Shown here one piece after another: positions 27,205 through 29,941 of a DNA stretch of 41,348 bases (within the stretch, counting starts at the first letter, position 1; each line of letters opens with the position of its first letter). Made by a program: the position numbers and the translations under genes. This DNA is from Gammaproteobacteria bacterium (GTDB taxonomy: Bacteria; Pseudomonadota; Gammaproteobacteria; DSM-19610). The notes beneath the pieces were generated by a model, which worked only from the letters and a program-made list of their open reading frames with translations, ran no database searches and was not told the DNA's origin. The DNA is taken from NCBI GenBank assembly GCA_020347685.1, contig CP070738.1:1762137-1803484 (forward strand), given 5' to 3'.

Positions 27205-27238
27205 AAAAAAGGCCGCGGTGTTTGCACGGCGGCCTTAT
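27205..27238 (-). terminator. Intrinsic terminator after iscU
   Basis: AAGGCCGC (27209-27216) pairs with GCGGCCTT (27229-27236) around a 12-base loop, and on the minus strand the stem runs into six U. It lies about 30 bp after the iscU stop and should end the iscR-iscU message before the RibD-C gene. Confidence 0.8.
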
Positions 27239-27266: not shown

Positions 27267-27662
27267 CTAGGCCACTTCCTCGCGCTGGTTCTTCTCTTTG
27301 AAGTCTGAGATTGCCGCCTTGATGGCATCTTCGGCCAGTACCGAACAGTGCACCTTGACCGGCGGCAAGGCCAGCTCTTCCGCAATCTGGCTGTTCTTGA
27401 TCTGGCTGGCTTCTTCCAGGCTCTTGCCCTTGACCCATTCGGTCAACAGGGAGCTGGACGCAATTGCCGAGCCGCAGCCGTAAGTCTTGAAGCGAGCGTC
27501 CTCGATAATGCCATTATCGTTGACCTTTATCTGCAGCTTCATTACGTCACCACACGCGGGCGCGCCCACCATGCCTGTGCCCACACTGGTGTCGCTCTTG
27601 TCGAACGAGCCCACGTTGCGGGGGTTCTCGTAATGATCCAGAACCTTGTCACTGTATGCCAT
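27267..27662 (-). CDS. iscU: Iron-sulfur cluster scaffold IscU
   Basis: A 131-aa protein, the normal length for IscU, on which [2Fe-2S] and [4Fe-4S] clusters are built before transfer to target proteins. All functional residues are present: Cys37 and Asp39 in APACGDVMKL, Cys63 in YGCGSAIASSS, the HscA-binding LPPVK loop and Cys106 in VHCSVLAEDAIKAAI. It should therefore work as a scaffold. It lies 38 bp after iscR with no iscS in between and is followed by a terminator, so the cysteine desulfurase, IscA, HscBA and ferredoxin must be encoded elsewhere or be replaced. Confidence 0.97.
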   Translation of the reverse strand: MAYSDKVLDHYENPRNVGSFDKSDTSVGTGMVGAPACGDVMKLQIKVNDNGIIEDARFKTYGCGSAIASSSLLTEWVKGKSLEEASQIKNSQIAEELALPPVKVHCSVLAEDAIKAAISDFKEKNQREEVA

Positions 27663-27700: not shown

Positions 27701-28156
27701 TCATGCCGCCGACTGTTGAAATCCCGAGCCGAAGCGGACGCCGCCCTGCTCGTCTTCCCCCGCCTCGCTGTTCTGGGCTACAGCCTCGGCCAGAGTCAAT
27801 CCGTCGAGGTAGTCGTAAATGCGTGCGCTCAGCTTGTTCCACATGATAACGCTCTGTGGCCATTCCTCGCCCGGTATACGCTCGCGGCGTGCGGGCATCG
27901 CATCATCGACCGCACTGAGTATTTCAGCGATCGTGATTTCGGATGCCGGTCGGCGTAGGCAATACCCGCCACCCGGGCCGCGCATTCCCGTAACCAGGCC
28001 ATGGTTACGCAGACGTGCGAACAATTGCTCGAGGTAAGATACCGAAATGGACTGTTCCACCGAGATGTCTGCCAGCGTCACCGGACCTTTGCTGTCCCGT
28101 AATGCCAGTTCCATCATCGCCGTAATCGCGTGACGACCTTTCGTTGATAATTTCAT
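27701..28156 (-). CDS. iscR: IscR-like Rrf2 regulator lacking the [2Fe-2S] cysteines
   Basis: A 151-aa Rrf2-family regulator at the iscR position. The winged helix is almost IscR-identical: KGRHAITAMMELAL, then SVSYLEQLFARLR (including Glu43, the residue that lets E. coli IscR discriminate its two site classes) and MRGPGGGYCL. The region that in IscR holds the ligands Cys92, Cys98, Cys104 and His107 reads MPARRERIPGEEW followed by PQSVIMWNKL and has no Cys or His; the only Cys in the protein is Cys66. It should not bind the usual cluster. I chose ATG 28156 (MKLSTKG), with GAGG seven bases upstream. A type 1-like IscR box covers its promoter. Confidence 0.9.
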   Translation of the reverse strand: MKLSTKGRHAITAMMELALRDSKGPVTLADISVEQSISVSYLEQLFARLRNHGLVTGMRGPGGGYCLRRPASEITIAEILSAVDDAMPARRERIPGEEWPQSVIMWNKLSARIYDYLDGLTLAEAVAQNSEAGEDEQGGVRFGSGFQQSAA

Positions 28157-28222
28157 GATTCGCCTCATTTGCTTTCAGGCGCAACACTCAAGATGCGCGT
28201 CTCCGTTTCCAGAACGATTACA

Positions 28223-28256
28223 ATGATAATAATACTTGAGTCTTTTAGTCAAGAAT
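28223..28256 (-). promoter_or_regulatory. iscR promoter with type 1-like IscR operator
   Basis: On the minus strand TTGACT (28252-28247) and TATCAT (28228-28223) with an 18-base spacer form a sigma-70 promoter. Overlapping the -35 is a 25-bp near-palindrome (28232-28256) with half-sites ATACTTGAGTC and TAGTCAAGAAT. It fits the IscR type 1 consensus at about 22 of 25 positions by my count. In E. coli such a site is used by holo-IscR to repress its own operon. Confidence 0.72.
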
Positions 28257-28354: not shown

Positions 28355-29737
28355 TCAAGCCGCCAAGCGGCGCGCGATGTCGTCAAAAATAGTCATATTT
28401 TCAGCGATTTGTGTCGCTGCATCGAGTACAAGCTGTTGGTCCAGCTCGAGCATTTGGAGCGCGAAGGCGGGTAATCCAAGGGTGTCCGCCTCTCCGATTC
28501 CGTGCAGCGCCAGGGCGCGGTTGGCAATTAACACCAGTTGCGGATACACCGCGTGTTGGTCCCAGTATCCCTCGTCATGATGGTATCTGACGGCGGTGAC
28601 CAGCTCCGCGGGCAGGCCCCAGGCCTCCATGAGCCAGGCGCCGATCTGATCGTGGGTCACGCCGAGCACCTGGCGTTCCAGTTCGCAACTCGGCATCTCC
28701 GGGTTTGCTTCGGCGAAGCGGTTGAGCAGGAAGAATTCCGCCTCAAACGTGTGACCCAGGACCAGCCTGCCGAGGTTCTGCAACAGGCCAGCCAGGTACG
28801 CGGTGCCACGCGGCGGTCGCTGGGCGCGCGGCAGGTATTGAGAAAGCACCTCGACCAGCCGCGCACAACAGACCGAATGCTGCCAGAAGGCGTCCATGCC
28901 GAACGGGCCGTCCTTAGGGACGCGTAACGCCTTGCCAATGGAAAAACCGAGCGCAAGGTTCATTACGTAATCGAATCCCAGCACTCGCGCGATGGCCGTC
29001 TGCAGATTGTTTATCTTGCCTGCGTACCCGTACAGCGATGAGTTGGCATAGCGCAGCACCTGTGCGGACAGGGCGGGGTCCTGCTCGATGATCTGTGCCA
29101 GCTGACGGGCGTTGGCGCGCGGGTCAGCCGCCAACTGGAGAATCTGGGCGGCCGTCGCAGGCAGCGCGGGTAATTCGTGGAATTCTTCAACGTCGCGTTT
29201 GACCCGCGCCGGGGTAAACTGCTCGACCGCCTCGGACAGACTCTGCTCATCGCCACTCAAGGTTGCCGCAGGGCGCGAAAACGGGACGCTCAGGACGCTG
29301 CCACCCAGAAGACTGCGGAACTGGAAGTAGGGCATCTGAACCAGCGAGGTGTGGGTTCCCGGTTCGAAGGTCACCAGATCCATCCCCTCCAGCGCGGCGT
29401 CCAGCACCACGTCCAGATTGTAGGCCGGCGCCAGGGGTGGATAGGAGCCTGGCTCGCAGTCACTGAAAACGGAGTTGAGGCGATTGCCGGGAACCAGTTC
29501 CAGGTCGCGGTGGAGCTGACGGCACAGCGTATCGAAATCGATCACGTGGTCGGCGGGCAGTACGGCCATCAGCAGGCCCCTCCCGTCCACCAGGATCACA
29601 GCCCGGACCAGTTGGCCAAGCGCCAGATCGCATGCCTCGGCGGCTTGCGTCAGGGTGGTGGTTTTGCGGTGCGGCAAGACCTGGTAGTGTGCATGCTCGC
29701 GTTCGAGCAGGTCGCGGATACTGGCCGGTATTCCCAT
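28355..29737 (-). CDS. YbaK/deacylase-like domain fused to HDOD domain
   Basis: A 460-aa cytoplasmic protein with two modules. Residues 1-150 form a YbaK/aminoacyl-tRNA deacylase-like domain (SIRDLLEREHAHYQVLPHRK, LVRAVILVDGRGLLMAVLPADH, TSLVQMPYFQFRSLLGG). From about residue 185 there is an HDOD domain: FHELPALPATAAQILQLA, IIEQDPALSAQVLRYANSS, YLAGLLQNLGRLVLGHTF, and a late VRYHHDEGYWD. HDOD proteins are non-enzymatic relatives of HD phosphodiesterases and act in signalling. The fusion is a known but uncharacterised gammaproteobacterial type. I chose ATG 29737 (MGIPASIRD), with GGGGAA upstream. It is divergent from rsd. Confidence 0.88.
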   Translation of the reverse strand: MGIPASIRDLLEREHAHYQVLPHRKTTTLTQAAEACDLALGQLVRAVILVDGRGLLMAVLPADHVIDFDTLCRQLHRDLELVPGNRLNSVFSDCEPGSYPPLAPAYNLDVVLDAALEGMDLVTFEPGTHTSLVQMPYFQFRSLLGGSVLSVPFSRPAATLSGDEQSLSEAVEQFTPARVKRDVEEFHELPALPATAAQILQLAADPRANARQLAQIIEQDPALSAQVLRYANSSLYGYAGKINNLQTAIARVLGFDYVMNLALGFSIGKALRVPKDGPFGMDAFWQHSVCCARLVEVLSQYLPRAQRPPRGTAYLAGLLQNLGRLVLGHTFEAEFFLLNRFAEANPEMPSCELERQVLGVTHDQIGAWLMEAWGLPAELVTAVRYHHDEGYWDQHAVYPQLVLIANRALALHGIGEADTLGLPAFALQMLELDQQLVLDAATQIAENMTIFDDIARRLAA

Positions 29738-29941
29738 CCTTAGGTTCCCCAATCTGTGGTTGATCTGGTTCAGCGACAGCAAGATCTGCACCACCATTGA
29801 AAAAATTATAGAATTCAGTATCCTGACAGCGCCTGGTGAATGCGCGGGGCAAACAGCGACAAAGGATCGACGCCTGAAGCCCGGGGTAGCGGGAACAGTT
29901 TGTTACAATTTTCTGACGAAAAGATCACGCGGAGTGACTTC

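Follow-up and report, generated by a model that had tools for sequence, protein, structure and literature searches.

The 41,348-nucleotide stretch of DNA analysed here (the window) encodes a real IscR paralog, designated IscR3, which carries neither Cys nor His in the region where IscR holds its cluster ligands, which is under strong purifying selection, and behind which lies the only iscU gene of the genome. IscR is the textbook regulator that reads the state of the cell through its own Fe-S cluster. The parts of the system are of known kinds, and the combination of a Cys-less IscR paralog with a detached iscU appears to be new.

RESULTS

IscR3 retains the DNA-binding residues of IscR and has none of its cluster ligands

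The iscR3 gene (27701 to 28156, minus strand, stop codon included) encodes a 151-amino-acid protein of the Rrf2 family. Translation likely starts at the ATG at 28156, which is preceded by GAGGCGAATC. An alternative in-frame ATG at 28168 (open reading frame 27701 to 28168) would add MRRI and give a protein of 155 amino acids; the downstream start was preferred because a GAGG ribosome-binding site precedes it and because a relative (L021) keeps RRI but has no upstream ATG. The original prediction had been that no Cys or His is present where IscR has C92, C98, C104 and H107 and that residue 66 is the sole Cys. Residues 86 to 108 (AMPARRERIPGEEWPQSVIMWNK; 27833 to 27901, minus strand), the counterpart of this stretch, bore this out with zero Cys and zero His, and AMPARRERIPGEEWPQS within them was invariant across the genus. 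The only His residues of IscR3 are H9 and H52. C66 (codon at 27959 to 27961, minus strand) adjoins Y65 of the wing, outside the C-terminal cluster region, and is conserved in families f1 and f122; L038 (from genome G376) and L078 have Ser or Phe at this position, and their proteins contain no Cys throughout. The existence of such members made C66 unlikely as an obligatory ligand.

Retention of the winged helix and of Glu43, also predicted, was borne out as well: S40, E43, Q44 and R59, the DNA-contacting residues in E. coli IscR, are all present and were invariant in a 59-sequence alignment. Membership of the Rrf2 superfamily was indicated by 102 bits against PF02082 (cut-off, 30) and 105 bits against TIGR00738 (cut-off, 73.3), and the score of 143.4 bits against the IscR equivalog TIGR02010 was below the curated cut-off of 207.55. 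An AlphaFold2 model of IscR3 (mean pLDDT, 82) gave apo-IscR (4hf0) as the best structure match, with an E value of 4.8e-13, and IscR-DNA complexes came next. A C-terminal Ala-Ala, often SAA (27704 to 27712 in iscR3), was observed in 37 of 48 Cys-less proteins and in half of the standalone ligand-bearing IscRs, compared to 3 of 15 isc-operon IscRs; these termini resemble an ssrA-type C-terminal degron.

The Cys-less state is conserved under strong constraint

Of the 16 other genomes in the Thiogranum-like genus, 15 had orthologs in the same Cys-less state, with 86 to 92% identity. The sole genome in which none was seen (G005) is 79% complete, and no iscU was seen there either. Outside the genus, orthologs were present in G017 (83%) and in G018 and G019 (71%), the copy in G019 ending at the contig end. 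Comparison of 13 sequences indicated that synonymous differences were near saturation (pS about 0.6) and that the loop at residues 86 to 105 had the lowest pN/pS of any part of the protein (0.015, with a mean pS of 0.63 and a pN of 0.009), the values for the remaining parts being 0.037 to 0.103. A frameshift restoring a Cys-rich segment had been named as an event that would overturn the prediction. No such segment was found in the other reading frames of the iscR3 stretch, and the same sequence was present in independently assembled genomes, which excluded a frameshift or sequencing error. A degenerating duplicate was ruled out by the low pN/pS of the loop together with the conservation of the promoter, operator and terminator.

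The only iscU is detached from the isc operon

The iscU gene (27267 to 27662, minus strand; 131 amino acids) begins 38 bp after iscR3. Its product scored 230.9 bits against TIGR01999 (cut-off, 192.4) and retains the GAPACGD, YGCGSA and LPPVKVHC segments. A genome-wide search of the genome containing the window (G000) detected exactly one IscU, that of the window. Two further IscRs, both with all ligands, were present in this genome. The canonical iscR (G000:C1:2222636-2223067) heads iscS-iscA-hscB-hscA-fdx-iscX, and its product has all four ligands and scored 210.2 bits against TIGR02010, which is above the cut-off; the other ligand-bearing gene, iscR2, is standalone (818858-819253). IscR3, which had been taken for the protein at the iscR position, is therefore a third IscR paralog, and instead of the first place in an isc operon (iscRSUA-hscBA-fdx) it has iscU alone behind it. 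In the isc operons of G000, G008, G017 and G376, iscS was directly followed by iscA and iscU was missing. The closed genome G008 had the same arrangement, with iscU solely behind IscR3, and each of the other genus members with IscR3 had one IscU above the cut-off, adjoining IscR3. Second, low-scoring IscU matches in G003 and G015 were located beside another desulfurase and were NifU-like in appearance.

A second NifS-like cysteine desulfurase was located between iscR and iscS in many relatives (e.g., G008 and G017; L110 and L111) and was not present at this position in the genome of the window (isc operon at L005:5191-7068). The gene upstream of iscR3 (28355 to 29797, minus strand) encodes a YbaK-like aminoacyl-tRNA editing domain fused to an HDOD domain and is a conserved neighbour of IscR3 in f1 and some members of f122.

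The iscR3-iscU unit has a type-1-like operator

A type-1-like IscR operator, ATTCTTGACTAAAAGACTCAAGTAT, was detected upstream of iscR3 (28232 to 28256, minus strand), with TT in both half-sites. Sites were scored against the E. coli type 1 consensus, to which the E. coli iscR promoter itself had 1 mismatch. The iscR3 operator had 3 mismatches in 25 positions, and none of 500 shuffles had fewer than 6. The operator was present in every f1 and f153 ortholog whose upstream sequence was long enough, and sites of the same type were also found before the canonical iscR and iscR2 of G000. In G000 and G008 the exact operator occurred solely before iscR3, the canonical iscR site being next at 2 mismatches and a control pattern giving 0 matches. 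Among genes with a site, TT in both half-sites, the bases contacted by E43, was observed in 29 of the 33 Cys-less ones versus 3 of the 26 ligand-bearing ones. When these were collapsed to families by hand, the numbers were 6 of 10 and 2 of 16, respectively (Fisher P = 0.026), and the association of TT/TT operators with Cys-less genes is suggestive only. The best type 2 site upstream of iscR3 in the window had 8 mismatches in 26 positions, no better than chance-like scores, and a pattern search for a wider regulon yielded few additional sites without a clear target. One type-1-like site (2 mismatches) was located about 50 bp before a 150-amino-acid open reading frame with no Pfam match (L129:1001-1453; G000:C1 near 184430), which is a possible further regulon member.

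A sigma70-like promoter, TTGACT-18-TATCAT (28223 to 28252, minus strand; 10 of 12 matches), overlaps the operator and was aligned in the orthologs. The leader of iscR3 (28157 to 28216, minus strand) is highly conserved, with the ribosome-binding site and a possible hairpin (GCGCAC/GUGC-U-GCGC). It was nearly invariant in 14 genus members, one pair of the predicted hairpin had a compensatory change, and a GCGCCU stretch could pair with the AGGCG of the ribosome-binding site. A search of Rfam with the leader gave no match, and its single-sequence fold was no better than those of shuffles. After iscU, an intrinsic-terminator-like hairpin followed by T6 was present (27212 to 27230, minus strand). 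A hairpin with a GC stem occurred at this place in the window and in the 12 relatives inspected, nearly always with a T-run, so that iscR3 and iscU most likely form a single two-gene operon.

Other gammaproteobacterial families also carry Cys-less IscR paralogs

Cys-less IscR paralogs were also detected in other gammaproteobacterial families, with a canonical IscR alongside in every genome checked, and were located immediately upstream of iscU in at least three further families. In family f153 (G376, G171, G281 and probably L078), the order was IscR3, iscU and a ribD-like gene, surrounded by rsd and nudix genes, and no second iscU was found in G376, G171 or G281. Cys-less IscR-iscU pairs were also present in G055, where this iscU is an extra copy, and in G119 and G334, where it is detached. 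Taken by family, IscR3 and iscU were joined in f1, f153, f37 and f101, and iscU was the detached gene in f1, f153 and f101. G303 had a Cys-less IscR before iscS-iscU plus a canonical IscR, and in G374 an extra iscU was preceded by an IscR whose ligand loop is shortened. The Thiohalobacter relatives (f122, among them the cultured T. thiocyanaticus Hrh1, L080) and G101 carried IscR3 in similar surroundings and with no adjacent iscU. G140, G350 and G101 had iscU inside the isc operon, and both iscU copies were present in G018. A spermidine-synthase-like gene followed IscR3 in G140 and Hrh1. Alongside the canonical IscR, as many as three different Cys-less IscR-like proteins were present in genomes of family f37 (L088, L117 and L118 in G055; L137, L144 and L149 in G303).

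An alignment and tree had been proposed as the check on whether the protein nests in IscR. In a tree built without the cluster-loop columns, IscR3 did nest within the IscR family, the Cys-less proteins grouping with standalone IscRs and some isc-operon IscRs in a clade that was separated from the E. coli-type isc IscRs with a support of 99/94. All 48 Cys-less rows formed one group in the best tree, with a support of 43/84 that is not firm. Trees of IscU did not separate one from several moves of iscU to IscR3 (AU P values of 0.19 to 0.50).

DISCUSSION

The best sequence and structure match of IscR3 is E. coli IscR, with which it shares the Rrf2 fold, the four DNA-contacting residues, the wing, and first place in an operon that carries an isc gene behind a type-1-like operator. 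It differs in the absence of C92, C98, C104 and H107, in an operon with iscU alone and in its score below the TIGR02010 cut-off. CymR, the Cys-regulator of Firmicutes, is likewise an Rrf2 repressor with no cluster (the cluster-free state of IscR3 being read from its sequence), but IscR3 is tied to an Fe-S scaffold gene and not to cysteine genes. IscR3 was rejected as a CymR ortholog, since its score of 96.6 bits against NF047409 was below the cut-off of 195 and, with canonical IscRs at 90 to 94 bits, it was no closer to CymR than they were. An IscR homolog with no canonical ligands is found in Rhodobacteraceae (R. sphaeroides, PMC4618611; Dinoroseobacter structure 7zpn). That protein heads an isc-suf operon, needs the C-terminal C142 for its cluster and acts on the Iron-Rhodo-box, whereas IscR3 is a paralog beside canonical IscRs, has a wing Cys or none and has a type-1-like operator. 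The clusterless laboratory variant IscR(C92A) is active on type 2 promoters and leaves the type 1 iscR promoter unrepressed (PMC12594620); IscR3, in contrast, is natural, has a rebuilt loop and coexists with a canonical IscR. No papers on a Cys-less IscR-iscU pair or on IscR in Thiohalobacter were found in a search of open-access literature.

The explanation that we favour, and to which we give about an even chance of being correct, is that IscR3 is an ancient, cluster-independent IscR paralog locked in the apo form. The signal would be carried by the quantity of IscR3, which holo-IscR would set at the operator, and no longer by cluster occupancy. In favour of this reading are the lost ligands and the constrained loop, the Cys-free L038 and L078, the pairing with the sole iscU next to a coexisting canonical IscR, the fold closest to that of apo-IscR and the conserved operator. 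IscR3 would bind DNA in the manner of apo-IscR, with E43, S40, Q44 and R59 kept, whatever the supply of clusters, and the canonical isc-operon IscR, in its holo form, would read the iscR3 operator, which has TT in both half-sites. Abundant clusters would then keep the iscR3-iscU unit repressed, and a shortage would relieve repression of both this unit and the isc operon, raising IscU and a cluster-blind IscR simultaneously. Cluster status would reach the targets of IscR3 via its quantity and not its cluster occupancy, and the supply of IscU would be set apart from that of IscS, IscA and HscBA. In E. coli, it is Glu43 that prevents apo-IscR from binding type 1 sites (PMC5411485). This residue and the behaviour of IscR(C92A) in E. 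coli suggest that a permanently apo IscR3 should not bind its own TT/TT operator and that holo-IscR could. The original suggestion of a constitutive or differently gated regulator of iscU is retained as the best reading in the form of a cluster-independent or differently gated regulator that is linked to iscU. It had missed the real peculiarity of the locus, the absence of iscU from the isc operon and its presence solely behind IscR3.

The correlation of TT/TT operators with Cys-less genes fits the apo-locked reading and binding of IscR3 to its own operator equally well. The lack of a convincing type 2 site upstream of iscR3 and the single-Cys cluster of R. sphaeroides IscR (PMC4618611) also count against the apo-locked reading. 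The main rival, which we consider somewhat unlikely, is that IscR3 mimics the holo form: the rebuilt loop would replace the cluster-stabilised C92-C98 turn and shift the recognition helix, and IscR3 would always bind its own operator and hold iscR3-iscU at a constant level with no sensing. Besides the TT/TT operators, the occurrence of the exact operator solely before iscR3 in G000 and G008 and the invariance of the loop in the genus are consistent with such autorepression, and in NsrR the cluster turn does position the recognition helix (PMC5411485). However, the length and sequence of the loop differ in the Thiohalobacter relatives (L041 to L043 and L080) and in f153, most of which still have a TT/TT operator, and there is no variation at E43, the residue that keeps the apo form off type 1 sites. 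It is doubtful that IscR3 is instead controlled by a partner protein, most simply the apo-IscU of the same operon, so that loading of the scaffold would be the signal. The joining of IscR3 and iscU in four families, three of them with a detached iscU, and the strongest constraint falling on the loop would accord with protein gating; yet f122 and G101 retain IscR3 with no adjacent iscU, and operon partners frequently share no contact. The control of B. subtilis CymR, which is also cluster-free, by CysK offers a precedent.

The original claim that IscR3 does not sense clusters in the known way holds insofar as the IscR ligands are absent, but a cluster bound via a non-canonical Cys is conceivable, as R. 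sphaeroides IscR binds its cluster through the single C-terminal C142 and one non-canonical Cys hence does not exclude a cluster (PMC4618611). Unusual ligands in IscR3 (C66 across the dimer, Asp or Glu, or O or N ligands) nevertheless seem improbable: C66 is conserved in f1 and f122 but has become Ser or Phe in the Cys-free L038 and L078, where the synteny with iscU is the same, and its position next to Y65 of the wing is not in the cluster region. Least credible, and to our minds scarcely worth entertaining, is that IscR3 is a decaying paralog or a sequencing or assembly error; only the absence of ligands speaks for this, and against it stand the presence of the Cys-less protein in many independent assemblies, the constraint on the loop and the conserved promoter, operator and terminator.

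The host group consists of sulfur-oxidising bacteria, and the cell keeps a cluster-sensing IscR together with one that appears unable to sense clusters in the known way. A broader proposal, which we put forward as a long shot, is that a widespread gammaproteobacterial family of cluster-blind IscRs operates in tandem with a sensing IscR and has captured iscU in several lineages, which would place scaffold and desulfurase under separate control; in its most novel form, IscR3 would read the state of IscU by protein contact. Automatic annotation can call such proteins IscR or generic Rrf2 and thereby mask the difference. IscR3 provides a natural ligand-free protein for studying the control that the cluster exerts over binding to type 1 as opposed to type 2 sites. 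If the apo-locked reading is true, the function of apo-IscR can be split off into a gene of its own, and scaffold and desulfurase can be regulated separately.
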